IMG/VR virus record: IMGVR_UViG_3300020125_000181
Location: 1 to 21,042 of that record
DNA from: a virus
Length of the DNA: 21,042 nucleotides
Strand: one strand, 5' to 3'
In this document: piece after piece, positions 6,337-20,863 of the stretch
Layout of the letters: each line of letters starts with the position of its first letter
Numbering within the stretch: position 1 is the first letter of the stretch
Program-made: the position numbers and the translations under genes
Notes under the pieces: generated by a model
The model's database searches: none
What the model saw: the letters and a program-made list of their open reading frames with translations, nothing else
What the model was told of the DNA's origin: nothing

Positions 6337-6573
6337 GACACCAAGTTGGCACCAAAACCGGAGCGGACGGACGGGGACGGTGCGGGACGGACACGGACGA
6401 CGGATCGGCGCTAGCCCAGCGCTAGAGCCAAATCCGTCCCGTAGCGTCCGTGTCCGTCCCTGTCCGTCCGATGCGTGATCGGTGTCTGACACCAGTACGC
6501 AGCGCCCGCGATCGCTGTATCCATGCGGGATCCGCGTCGTGGCGGCCGGGTCAGACACCAAGATGACACCAAA
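6337..6573. other. Candidate phage attachment site (attP) with arm-type, phased and core repeats
   Basis: The region lies directly after the integrase gene. A core-like inverted repeat, GGCGCTAGC (6407-6415) and GCTAGAGCC (6421-6429), differs at one position and has a 5-nt spacer. On each side are four copies of a hexamer at exact 10-bp steps: GGACGG/A at 6365, 6375, 6385, 6395 and the inverted form at 6434, 6444, 6454, 6464. The midpoint of these arrays (6417) coincides with that of the core (6418). Outside are paired GACACCAA-type elements 11 bp apart (6337/6348 and 6554/6565) and an inverted pair GGTGTC-T-GACACC (6481-6493). The layout fits arm sites, accessory-protein sites and core of a tyrosine integrase. 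Confidence 0.55.
6364..6470. repeat. Long interrupted inverted repeat of phased decamers
   Basis: A 16-bp perfect inverted repeat, GGGACGGACACGGACG (6384-6399) with its complement at 6445-6460, and an outer 9-bp repeat (6364-6372 / 6462-6470) enclose a 45-nt centre. It could fold as a stable hairpin and end integrase transcripts, besides any role in recombination. Confidence 0.8.
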
Positions 6574-6597: not shown

Positions 6598-7818
6598 CTA
6601 CCCTTCCAGCGGGGCGGCGGCGGCGCGCGGTGTAGTGGCCGCGTGCGCTGTCGCCCTCTCCGCCGCCACGTACGCGGCCAGCTCGCGCGCCGCCCGCTCG
6701 TGCGCGGCGCCTTGGTAGTACACCGACTTGATCAGCTTCGCGTCCTTGTGCCCGACCCGCAGCGCGCACGTATCAAGCGAAATGCCGCGGTCGTACATGA
6801 TCGTGATCGCGGTCGCGCGCAGATCATGCGACGTGAAGTCGGAGCGGCCGGCGGCTTTCAGCGTCGGCGCCCACACCGCGCGATCGAAGTACGCGCCGGC
6901 CACGCGGCCGTCGACCATCGGCCAGTCGCGGCCGTCCGGCATCACCCACAGCCGTGATCGCCCGGCCGGCGTCGCCGGCAGGTGCGCGGTCGCGGTCGCT
7001 TCGGCGACGCGCAGCTCGCCCAGCTGTTCGCGGAACAGCTGCACCTCGTCAGGCAGCAGGGGGATCACTTTCGGGCGGCGTTCCTTCGGCTCCGGGATCG
7101 TGATGGTGGCACCGTCGACGTCGACCTGCCACCGCTCCAGCGTGAGCAGCTCCGAAATTCGGCAGCCGACGCGGCCCTGCAACAGCAGGAGCCGCACGTA
7201 CCGGGCCGGCGCGGCGAGCGCGAAGGCGTCCAGCTCGGCTGGTGTCAGCACCTTGCGGGTGCGGGGCCGCAGCTTCGGCGGCTTCACGTCGAGCAGCCGC
7301 TCCGGGATCGCGCAGCCCTCCGCGCGGGCGTAGCGGAGCGTGGCCTTCAGTCCGCCCAGCTCGTCTTTCGCGGACTTCGGATGCTTCGCGGCGCGGGCGC
7401 GGTGCGCGGCGGCGACGCGGCTCGGGTTCAGCAGGTGCACCGGCACCGCCGCGAACTCGCCTTCCATCCACGGCCGCAGGATCCGCCGCCACCACGCCAG
7501 CCCGCCGGCGGTGAGATCGCCCTCCACGATCTTCGCGTCGAGCAGCTCGCCGGCGGCGACGCCGAGCGTGAGCGTGCGCGGCGCGGTGTCGGGCGTCAGG
7601 CCAGCGCTGCGCCACTGGCGCAGCTCATTGATCCGCCGGTTCGCGGCGCGGACGCCGTCCGGCGTCGCCGGGAACGTTTCGACGTGCATCCCGAGCGACG
7701 GGAACGTGAGCCGGACGCGGACACGGCCGGTCGTGCGGTGCAGGTCCACGCCGGGCTCTAGCGTGATCCCGTGCAGGTGCACGGGGGTGCCCCTGCGGGC
7801 GGCGGTGGTAGTGGACAC
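6598..7818 (-). CDS. int: Tyrosine integrase
   Basis: This 406-aa recombinase would integrate the genome at a host attB and, with an excisionase, excise it. Residues about 10-65 look like a three-stranded arm-binding domain, 85-180 is the SAM-like core-binding domain, and 190-385 is catalytic. Active residues: Arg220 (GCRISELLTL), Lys245 or Lys250 (EPKERRPKVIPL), His331 and Arg334 (HDLRATAIT), His357 (VGHKD) and Tyr367 or Tyr368. The GTG at 7818 has AAAGGA about 8 nt upstream and starts 13 nt after the excisionase-like gene, so the two are co-transcribed. The gene looks intact. The C-terminal Ala-rich tail is longer than usual. Confidence 0.93.
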   Translation of the reverse strand: MSTTTAARRGTPVHLHGITLEPGVDLHRTTGRVRVRLTFPSLGMHVETFPATPDGVRAANRRINELRQWRSAGLTPDTAPRTLTLGVAAGELLDAKIVEGDLTAGGLAWWRRILRPWMEGEFAAVPVHLLNPSRVAAAHRARAAKHPKSAKDELGGLKATLRYARAEGCAIPERLLDVKPPKLRPRTRKVLTPAELDAFALAAPARYVRLLLLQGRVGCRISELLTLERWQVDVDGATITIPEPKERRPKVIPLLPDEVQLFREQLGELRVAEATATAHLPATPAGRSRLWVMPDGRDWPMVDGRVAGAYFDRAVWAPTLKAAGRSDFTSHDLRATAITIMYDRGISLDTCALRVGHKDAKLIKSVYYQGAAHERAARELAAYVAAERATAHAATTPRAAAAPLEG

Positions 7819-7831
7819 CGGGTACGTCCTT

Positions 7832-8155
7832 TCAGCTGCCGCTCGGGTCGTCCGGGCGGCTCCGCCGCATCGTACTCCCCCGGCTGCCGGGCCTGCGTCG
7901 CTCGCCGGCGGCGTGCGCGTCCGCGATCGCCTGCATCTCGGCGCTGATCGCGGACCAGATCACGAACCGGACGCGGCGGCTGATCTCCCACACCGGCAGC
8001 TTCCCCTGCCGGATATAGACATTCACGGTGTGCGCCGTGACGCCCAGCCGGCGGGCGGCTACCTCGATCGACACGTGCTCGTCGGCGTGCGGATGCTCTT
8101 CGGCCATCATCGTCGGCCCCACCTTCCCCCGCTCACTCTCGTCGTGCTGCGGCAC
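7832..8155 (-). CDS. xis: Excisionase-like HTH protein (recombination directionality factor)
   Basis: 107 aa from GTG 8155. A MerR-type winged HTH lies at about residues 28-67 (VSIEVAARRLGVTAHTVNVY followed by IRQGKLPVWEISRRVRFV), the usual domain of small excisionases. The C-terminal tail is Arg/Ser-rich. Adjacency to the integrase supports the assignment. Start is uncertain: GTG 8155 sits 5 nt after a possible -10 and would be leaderless, whereas ATG-ATG at 8110/8107 has AGGTGG about 10 nt upstream. The phased repeats upstream (8201-8270) share their hexamer with the attP-like site, consistent with self-regulation by the same protein; that link is inference. Confidence 0.75.
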   Translation of the reverse strand: MPQHDESERGKVGPTMMAEEHPHADEHVSIEVAARRLGVTAHTVNVYIRQGKLPVWEISRRVRFVIWSAISAEMQAIADAHAAGERRRPGSRGSTMRRSRPDDPSGS

Positions 8156-8200: not shown

Positions 8201-8270
8201 CGTCCCACACCGTCCCGCCGCGTCCCAACGCGTCCCACAACGTCCCCACCCGTCCCGCAGCGTCCGCTGT
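8201..8270. repeat. Seven-copy array of 10-bp phased repeats upstream of xis
   Basis: CGTCCC occurs at 8201, 8211, 8221, 8231, 8241 and 8251, and CGTCCG at 8261, each followed by four variable bases. The period is exactly 10 bp, so all copies face the same side of the helix. Two TGGCGGT units at 8271 and 8281 continue the phase. The hexamers are those of the attP-like arrays. Confidence 0.9.
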
Positions 8271-19030: not shown

Positions 19031-20863
19031 TCAATGCACGGCCGGCATCGGCGCCGGCCGGTGCGCGGCGACTAGGCACCAGCTGAGCGCGCGCACCAGG
19101 TGCGTCGGCCCCTTCGCGACCAGGAAGAGCCCTGACGGCGCTTCCTTGACGGCGGCGAGCTGCATCGTCTGGTCGAGTTCGGTGGTGGTGGTGTCATGCG
19201 TCAGCTGGTGGTTCAGCGCCAGGTCGCGGATCAGCGCGAGCCCGGCCTTGGTCTGCGCGGAGCCGCACGCGGTCGCCTGGCCGCGCATCCCGACCGGCAA
19301 GCGGTCGACCAGCGACGCGCCGACCTGGAGCCCGCGCAGGGGCCGCAGCGCCGCCAGCCGCTCCACGTCCGCGATCGCTGAGTCCCAGTCGCCGCGGAGC
19401 CACCCGTCGACCTCGATCCGGCCGTCCGCGAGCCGCGTCGCAGCGGCGACCGCCGCCCCGAAGCCGTAGTCGTCCTCCAACGCCACCCAGATCGGGCCGG
19501 TGCCGAACAGGCCGTCGCTGGCCAGGTCAGCCCATACGCCGTCCGGCAGGAGCGGCTCGGTCGCGCCGGTCAGCTGCGCCGCCTTCGCCGGCCACTGATT
19601 CAGCCACTGCGCCCGGAACGCCTCCACCGGGTCGGGCTCTTCCGGGTCTTCGATCTCGCCCGCTTCGATCGCCTGGAGGCGGCGCGCGATCAGCGATCGG
19701 CGGCGGAGCGTCCAATGCGGCGACGCGGCGCGCCAGGCGGCCAGGTCGTCCAGCTCCGCGCCGGCCGGCGCGCTCCACTCGATCAGCAGATCCCCCTCGC
19801 CGGCTTCCAGCTCCGCCAGCGCCACCATCCTGCGTTCGAGCATCAGCTTCGTGGCCTTCCGGTGCGCGGTCGACACGAGCCACAGCTGCGGCTGTTCGCG
19901 CTCCGTCATCGTCGGCGTCAGCCCCTCATCGACCGAGCTGGCCTTGACCTTCCATGCTTCGTCGACGGCCGCGGCCGAGACCGAGTAGCCGTACACCGCT
20001 TCCTTCGCGCGCAGCATCCACCGCGACCCGCTGGTGAGCAGCTCGATCTCTTCCTGGCCGTTCACTTCCCGCACCCGGTAGAAGTCGCGCCGCGCCTTCG
20101 CCCACACCCTGGCCGGCCGCTGAACTTCCTTGCACACCGCGAGATCCTTGCCGGTGTGGAGCACGTCTTGCGGCTCGCCGAACCGATCCGTCTGGTGCAT
20201 CCGCCAGAAACACAGCTCCCGCAGGAGCCACGACTTCCCGAGCTGCCGCGCCATCGACAGCACCATCGCTTCCCAGACCAGCCGCTCGTCCGCGTCGACC
20301 TCCAGGAGCCGGGCGGCGACCAGCCGCTGCCACCAGCGCAGCGGATAGCCGCTGCGTTCCTCCGCCCAGCGCGTGAAGTCCGGGCCGAGCGACCCGACCG
20401 CGCGGCGATGCGGCACCGACATCAGCCGCGGCCAGGTGGCGGATTCCGGCAGCTCCGCGAGCAGCGGCTCCAGCCACGGCACCGCCCACCGCGGATCCGT
20501 TGGCGCGAGACCACCGCGTTCCGGCTCCGGCTCCAGCCCGGCCAGCTCCACGCCCGGCCGCCACAGCCCTTGAGCGACCAGGATCCCGCCGCTCGCGTTG
20601 CAGCCCTCGCAGCTCGGGATCAGCCGGCAGCATCGCGACCCGCGGACGTGGCGATGCATCGCCAGCGGCGGGTCATGGTCGAGCGTCGTCGCGACCGCCT
20701 TCCGGCAATGCGCGCACTGCACCGGCGGATCGAGCCGCAGCGCTTCCAGCCGGCGGCGGTACTGCGGCTCGGCGTGCGGCTGACTCGCGGTCACAGCCGC
20801 ATCATCGCGCGCAGCCGCGCCCAGGTGCGCCCAGACGCCCGCAAACCCGCATGGTTGAGCCAT
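19031..20863 (-). CDS. Large terminase with N-terminal HNH-like domain
   Basis: 610 aa from ATG 20863; a TTG (20914) and a GTG (20794) are alternatives, none with a ribosome site, and all keep the HNH part. Residues 50-92 carry CAHC, DHDPP (His63) and LIPSCEGCNASGG, the zinc and metal pattern of HNH nucleases. The ATPase follows: Walker A ARQLGKSW (205-212), Walker B VDEAW (Asp301, Glu302), coupling motif STAH (331-334), then LNQW (421-424). The nuclease domain begins at GPIWVALEDDYGFG (Asp464/465) with Asp520; the third acidic residue near the C-terminus is not evident. It cuts and packages the genome. In most HK97-type phages the HNH protein is a separate neighbour. Confidence 0.88.
   Translation of the reverse strand: MAQPCGFAGVWAHLGAAARDDAAVTASQPHAEPQYRRRLEALRLDPPVQCAHCRKAVATTLDHDPPLAMHRHVRGSRCCRLIPSCEGCNASGGILVAQGLWRPGVELAGLEPEPERGGLAPTDPRWAVPWLEPLLAELPESATWPRLMSVPHRRAVGSLGPDFTRWAEERSGYPLRWWQRLVAARLLEVDADERLVWEAMVLSMARQLGKSWLLRELCFWRMHQTDRFGEPQDVLHTGKDLAVCKEVQRPARVWAKARRDFYRVREVNGQEEIELLTSGSRWMLRAKEAVYGYSVSAAAVDEAWKVKASSVDEGLTPTMTEREQPQLWLVSTAHRKATKLMLERRMVALAELEAGEGDLLIEWSAPAGAELDDLAAWRAASPHWTLRRRSLIARRLQAIEAGEIEDPEEPDPVEAFRAQWLNQWPAKAAQLTGATEPLLPDGVWADLASDGLFGTGPIWVALEDDYGFGAAVAAATRLADGRIEVDGWLRGDWDSAIADVERLAALRPLRGLQVGASLVDRLPVGMRGQATACGSAQTKAGLALIRDLALNHQLTHDTTTTELDQTMQLAAVKEAPSGLFLVAKGPTHLVRALSWCLVAAHRPAPMPAVH

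Follow-up and report, generated by a model that had tools for sequence, protein, structure and literature searches.

Helically phased decamer arrays on both sides of the centre of a probable phage attP and before a probable excisionase gene

The well-studied excisionases of tyrosine-integrase phages give recombination its direction by bending one arm of the attachment site. Here we analyze positions 6337-6573 of IMGVR_UViG_3300020125_000181, a complete IMG/VR virus record of 21,042 bases and 70% GC (the window), in which a centre flanked by arrays of decamers lies 3' of an integrase gene. Several described systems resemble it in part. Phage 186 Apl binds sets of direct repeats at intervals of one helix turn, five of them at attP and seven at pR-pL (PMC7498355), BldC loads head to tail on direct repeats and forms extended filaments (PMC5859096), and RdfS binds as an oligomer both at attP and before its own gene (PMC11963761). 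In Cluster J mycobacteriophages (PMC3706429), attP lies 3' of int, pairs of arm-type sites stand on both sides, and a helix-turn-helix (HTH) gene lies upstream of int.

We consider it likely that 6337-6573 is the attP of a lambda-type tyrosine integrase, with Int arm-type sites on the outside, excisionase arrays on both sides of the core, and the excisionase acting also at its own promoter. A sequence-only reading had taken the site to be attP-like, and that identity is now well supported: the site lies 3' of a lambda-like integrase, its layout is kept in relatives, the spacing of its outer pairs is rigid, and the same unit recurs before an Xis-like gene. The features are as follows.

6337-6355, plus strand: outer pair far from int, putative Int arm-type sites (GACACCAA at 6337, GGCACCAA at 6348; 11-bp step), with a counterpart of lineage-specific motif in the related attPs
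6365-6404, plus strand: array of four decamers GGACGNNNNN, matching the position weight matrix (PWM) of the promoter array at z 5.4, in inverted orientation
6407-6429, no strand: central inverted repeat GGCGCTAGC-CCAGC-GCTAGAGCC, by its position the putative core or exchange region (8 of 9 pairs, centre 6418)
6430-6469, minus strand: array of four inverted decamers (CGTCC on the plus strand), promoter-array PWM z 6.1, in the orientation of the promoter array
6481-6493, no strand: palindrome GGTGTCTGACACC, with a 13-base core that is the same in each of the seven attPs compared, apart from a central A or T
about 6502-6541, minus strand: stem-loop between the int-side outer pair and the palindrome, from paired alignment cells and two-sided changes, weakest in the window itself
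6554-6572, plus strand: int-side outer pair, putative Int arm-type sites (GACACCAA at 6554 and 6565)
6598-7818, minus strand: tyrosine integrase gene, 406 amino acids (PF00589, E 6.5e-14; phrog_1, E 1.1e-34)
7832-8155, minus strand: HTH protein of 107 amino acids, probable excisionase or recombination directionality factor (RDF) (phrog_66 excisionase/regulator, E 5.8e-6; HTH_17, E 2e-5, below the cut-off)
8201-8265, minus strand: array of seven decamers GGACGNNNNG upstream of the HTH gene, from the run screen; putative autoregulatory operator

The arrays stand out in a screen of the entire 21-kb record, in which each 5-mer was examined for runs of four or more copies with one exact spacing between 7 and 13 bp. 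GGACG/CGTCC was the sole 5-mer to pass, with runs of four at 6365, four inverted at 6435 and seven at 8201, all at a step of 10 bp; a GTCCC run at 8202 is a frame-shifted view of the 8201 array, and a first-order Markov null gives 0.01 runs of this kind expected per record. GGACG starts at 6365, 6375, 6385 and 6395 and CGTCC at 6435, 6445, 6455 and 6465, with a midpoint at 6417, so that the coordinates given by the sequence-only reading for four GGACGG-type units on the left and four inverted units on the right are confirmed. Its outer pairs 11 bp apart are also there: GACACCAA is exact at 6337, 6554 and 6565, and the copy at 6348 has one mismatch. The array at 8201-8265, which was absent from that reading, immediately precedes the HTH gene and provides the key to the arrays at attP.

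With exact 10-bp steps the units have the one-helix-turn spacing of RDF operators, and an RDF-type winged HTH gene lies near int. As at 186, short helix-turn-spaced sites occur at both attP and a promoter, and one DNA-binding protein would serve both, but the 186 sites are described as direct repeats whereas here arrays flank the centre, with inverted orientation in three of four lineages (PMC7498355). Because of this two-sided inverted orientation we class the attP arrays as a variant rather than as an ordinary RDF array, with the caveat that a single orientation at att is what is described for Apl and is not required of other RDF sites; the window, G010 and L150 (see below) have inverted arrays, and the L183 lineage direct ones. 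BldC and RdfS share the MerR-like or winged HTH fold, head-to-tail loading and one DNA turn per molecule; in contrast, BldC is a host developmental regulator, and for RdfS a single place of binding at att is described, which lies upstream of the P3 site (PMC5859096, PMC11963761). The Cluster J cassette has the same attP 3' of a tyrosine integrase, direct-repeat arm-type pairs on both sides and HTH gene upstream of int, but the available part of that report describes no phased arrays between arm sites and core, and gives a 44-bp common core where we identified none (PMC3706429).

The layout proved to be conserved among relatives. A search with the integrase against 50 related records gave one close match, G010, at 54% identity, and downstream of its integrase (L146) the matching layout is written in other letters, with TTGGAAC-type outer pairs, GGATGCGCGG decamers and the palindrome GGTGTCTGACACC. 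A profile of these two integrases found L150 and L151, which have one attP sequence in common, and a further profile search found L202. A pattern search using the palindrome only found L183, L186 and L189, in all three of which a related integrase was then confirmed; six further records that matched the palindrome pattern were without the attP layout. The seven attPs compared (the window, L146, L150, L183, L186, L189 and L202) represent about four lineages.

Across relatives whose integrases are 50-59% identical the layout is kept, although the sequence of the unit has changed. Read in the direction of int, the integrase gene is followed by an outer pair, the stem-loop, the palindrome, one array, the centre, the other array, the second outer pair and then the next gene. 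In the six attPs that were measured, 79-80 bp separate the start of the int-side outer pair from the palindrome, despite turnover of the motif of this pair, which by lineage is TTGGTGTC, TTGGAAC, TGGAGC or GTGTCAA; the far pair lies 116-140 bp beyond the palindrome. Putative arm-type sites are thus present in both arms, as in lambda-type attPs, judging from the sequence of those six. The pair pattern GACACCAANNNGNCACCAAA has 17 matches in viral contigs. Each side holds about five units in G010 and the L183 lineage (counted by eye) and four in the window and L150, and the 10-bp periodicity has z values from 2.5 to 5.9. Elsewhere, CGATCGTGTT repeats flank a centre at L218:4300-4410 (G032); they lie 3' of an integrase with 38% identity along part of its sequence, and the locus may be a site of the same type in a distant relative. 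At L222:6550-7001 (G038), 2.5 kb downstream of int, there is a long run of GGCAYGGC-like repeats with many steps of about 10 bp.

The adjacent recombinase has the build expected of an enzyme that reads arm-type sites. In its AlphaFold model (mean predicted local distance difference test score, pLDDT, 77) the closest structure is lambda Int (1z1b; Z 17.3, 322 residues aligned, root-mean-square deviation 8.2), with residues 10-385 aligning to lambda Int residues 7-356 and three strands and a helix forming the N-terminal part, so that a tyrosine recombinase gene with an N-terminal arm-binding domain lies next to the site. R220, K245, H331, R334, H357 and Y367 are invariant across the alignment. 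The modeled fold of the HTH protein is that of Xis and BldC: the closest structure is Xis of mycobacteriophage Pukovnik (Z 7.4, 52 residues aligned, 2.2 A), followed by BldC (Z 7.0, 54 aligned, 2.1 A). The HTH proteins of the relatives match the excisionase family TIGR01764, that of L150 exceeding the cut-off. Against the BldC family NCBIfam NF033787 the window protein had no match, and that of the relative G024 scored 52.5 bits against a cut-off of 77.

A second array lies before the HTH gene in each phage of the group that was checked, and in the window it is written in the same unit as the arrays at attP. A PWM built from the promoter array of the window alone gave z 6.1 and 5.4 for the attP arms of the window and 3.6 or less for those of other phages, and the PWM from the G010 promoter array scored the G010 arms at z 9.4 and 7.1; because their GC-rich units are alike, the PWM rows of G010, L150 and L183 separate poorly. 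In the related phages G042 and G024 the integrases have no match to that of the window, yet a 10-bp array precedes the HTH gene, which ties the arrays to the HTH protein and not to Int. The phased accessory-protein sites predicted by the sequence-only reading are well supported, and its suggestion of the 107-residue HTH protein as their binder has become the leading explanation. Decamer arrays were also seen in related phages with other integrases: TGTCCCCGYT units, about 6-7 of them, precede BldC/Xis-like genes at L208 (about 2907) and L213:2328-2402, where the integrases are unrelated, and ATGCCTCGGC decamers with inverted copies surround the start of an HTH gene at L229:2560-2860 (G021, another integrase), all in the reading direction of int; the latter is possibly an attP upstream of xis-int.

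Given that Cluster J phages have arm-like sites at the start of their own int gene (PMC3706429), one can propose instead that the decamers are the arm-type sites of the integrase, that the excisionase or some other factor occupies the outer pairs, and that the integrase regulates its own operon through the 8201 array. The change in motif tracks both the Int and the HTH lineages, and three or four lineages therefore cannot separate the two. The G042 and G024 arrays, however, precede HTH genes in phages whose integrases do not match; two pairs of outer sites fit an Int tetramer; and RDFs typically have arrays of 5-7 units at one-helix-turn spacing (PMC7498355). We regard this assignment as unlikely.

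The midpoint between the arrays is the likeliest position of the core. The 9-bp core-like inverted repeat reported for the centre is present, with 8 of 9 pairs around 6418, and 0.8% of shuffles of this short segment do as well or better (P 0.008). The relatives have no significant 9-bp inverted repeat at the attP centre, and since it is not kept, it is weak evidence when taken alone. The attB of mycobacteriophage tyrosine integrases is usually a tRNA gene, and phages with tRNA-dependent lysogeny encode the tRNA that they disrupt (PMC10865867). In G010 a tRNA-Leu(CAA) gene (L146:3250-3331) lies beside attP, about 100 bp from the centre, and the centre itself (AACCCGCACGGG) matches the T arm of that tRNA-Leu on the opposite strand at 12 of 12 bases, a match equalled by none of 2000 shuffles; a T-arm match between the arrays is what would be expected for a core. 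G010 is a candidate for tRNA-dependent lysogeny, resembling those mycobacteriophages in the tRNA gene beside attP and the T arm matching the centre; it differs from them in that its integration is a candidate case only, and the window has no tRNA gene (PMC10865867).

The palindrome at 6481-6493 offers a second place for the exchange point. With GGTGTCWGACACC, it is the most constant part of the seven attPs and has long symmetric flanks, as might be expected of a core tied to one host locus, and both arrays would then lie in one arm of attP. A palindrome pattern with 18 specified bases occurs in 8 of 2.9 million IMG/VR viral contigs, seven of which are these phages. Against an exchange there, the central base is A or T depending on the member, and the tRNA-like match of G010 falls between the arrays. 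In lambda attP the arm sites lie at asymmetric distances from the core, and a core at the array midpoint places the outer pairs about 72 and 145 bp away, a lambda-like asymmetry. Exchange at the palindrome thus appears improbable; its constancy while other sites change suggests, from sequence comparison, recognition by a host factor or a conserved phage dimer. The stem-loop at about 6502-6541, like the palindrome, had no place in the sequence-only reading. In its alignment 83% of cells are paired (none of 500 shuffles as high), with four pairs changed on both sides over six distinct rows, and the int transcript may end here, at a terminator without a T run.

Several observations weigh against the attP reading. 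Several relatives are close to one another, which leaves only about four independent lineages. The HTH fold match is moderate (Z 7.4; pLDDT 69 overall, about 80 in the domain), and the P' arm, which carries an array here, is not where the cited excisionases are described to bind. The window centre has no clear tRNA match, and the genome searches made found no host, no close prophage and no attB, attL or attR. Aligned against genome contigs the integrase had no relative, and the terminase matched only metagenome-assembled genomes (MAGs), one of Acidimicrobiia (38%) and one of Armatimonadetes (27%). The integrase profile found no close relative in 395 genomes of the class of the terminase-matching MAG or in 396 of its phylum, and in the phylum sample the terminase profile matched only the MAG already known. 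A 19-base core with two mismatches allowed gave only chance-like matches in the sampled genomes. Consequently, with neither attB nor a lysogen found, the earlier placement of the exchange point within 6407-6429 is without support. No tRNA half was found with Rfam in the attP of the window or L183. We also considered and rejected a D-arm-like look of the window centre: matches with two mismatches occurred in 13 of 396 genomes, fewer than for a reversed control pattern, and only one of 15 fetched loci held a tRNA gene.

Replication origins and partition sites can also hold phased short repeats, and the arrays might be such a site, of iteron type in the case of an origin, adjoining int by chance. 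The layout, however, is found with this type of integrase, the same unit precedes the xis-like gene of the int operon, and the outer pairs and their spacing fit an att site, so that such an origin or partition site is very improbable.

The two arms match each other as inverted sequences in the window (z 7.7), G010 (z 9.8) and L150 (z 5.4), where the direct match is not significant; the L183 lineage shows the reverse, with a direct match at z 2.8-4.9 and no significant inverted one. Exact symmetry is therefore a feature of three lineages and not of the group, and with arrays of one orientation in the L183 lineage and four to five units per side, the perfect symmetry stressed by the sequence-only reading is not essential. 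Selection for a DNA or RNA hairpin of the two arms (terminator or cruciform), which are 73-88% complementary, is scarcely credible and was dropped: inverted complementarity is about equal at every 10-bp shift (0.62-0.74 in the window), with no favored register, as expected of copies of one unit and not of the arms of one hairpin, one lineage has direct arrays without inversion, and no terminator-like site was found.

For the attP reading we infer the following mechanism from the arrangement of sites and the protein folds. The integrase would bind the outer pairs at 11-bp steps as arm-type sites, and the eight inner decamers would be sites for the 107-residue winged HTH excisionase encoded just upstream of int. 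This protein would load head to tail on each side of the core, with one molecule for every helical turn, bending both arms and favoring excision. After integration one array would remain at each prophage end, in attL and in attR, so that the excisionase would shape both partners for excision; on attP it would block renewed integration, and on the seven-unit array before its own gene it would control expression of xis and int. A two-sided excisionase array is unusual within the known kind of attP and does not make a new category. More tentatively, and with doubt prevailing, these phages may represent an attP class with excisionase filaments that are seeded on either side of the core and replace a host bending factor in both arms, one protein setting the geometry of attL and attR as well as its own transcription, with orientation and unit number free and helical phase kept.

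All genes of the record lie on the minus strand, running from terminase through capsid and tail genes, the HTH gene and integrase to RecT-like and replication-type genes, several of these names being based on order and length alone. Viral contigs include many relatives of the capsid and terminase; the few named phages that match them do so at less than 33% identity each, and no named phage matches the integrase. No tRNA gene and no terminal repeat was found in the 21,042 bases. G010, G804, G809, G813 and the L202 contig carry the same integrase type and measure 20.9-21.2 kb, near the length of the record, which suggests a natural genome size of about 21 kb. No sigma-70 promoters or terminators were found, in a search that is uninformative at 70% GC. 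A weak 10-bp periodicity (0.65 at lag 10) occurs at 20798-20848, close to the start of the terminase frame.

Thus one small protein of a small soil phage probably both switches exit from the chromosome and controls its own production. If this is true, phased excisionase units flanking the core would amount to a second means of controlling direction, for which a host factor such as IHF may not be needed. The phage family would provide a natural set of matched proteins and operators, with about four different units, for studying how a small winged HTH protein chooses its DNA and for building switchable integration tools, and the matching of promoter array to attP array would give a simple sequence test for attP and excisionase genes where the hosts of phages are unidentified.
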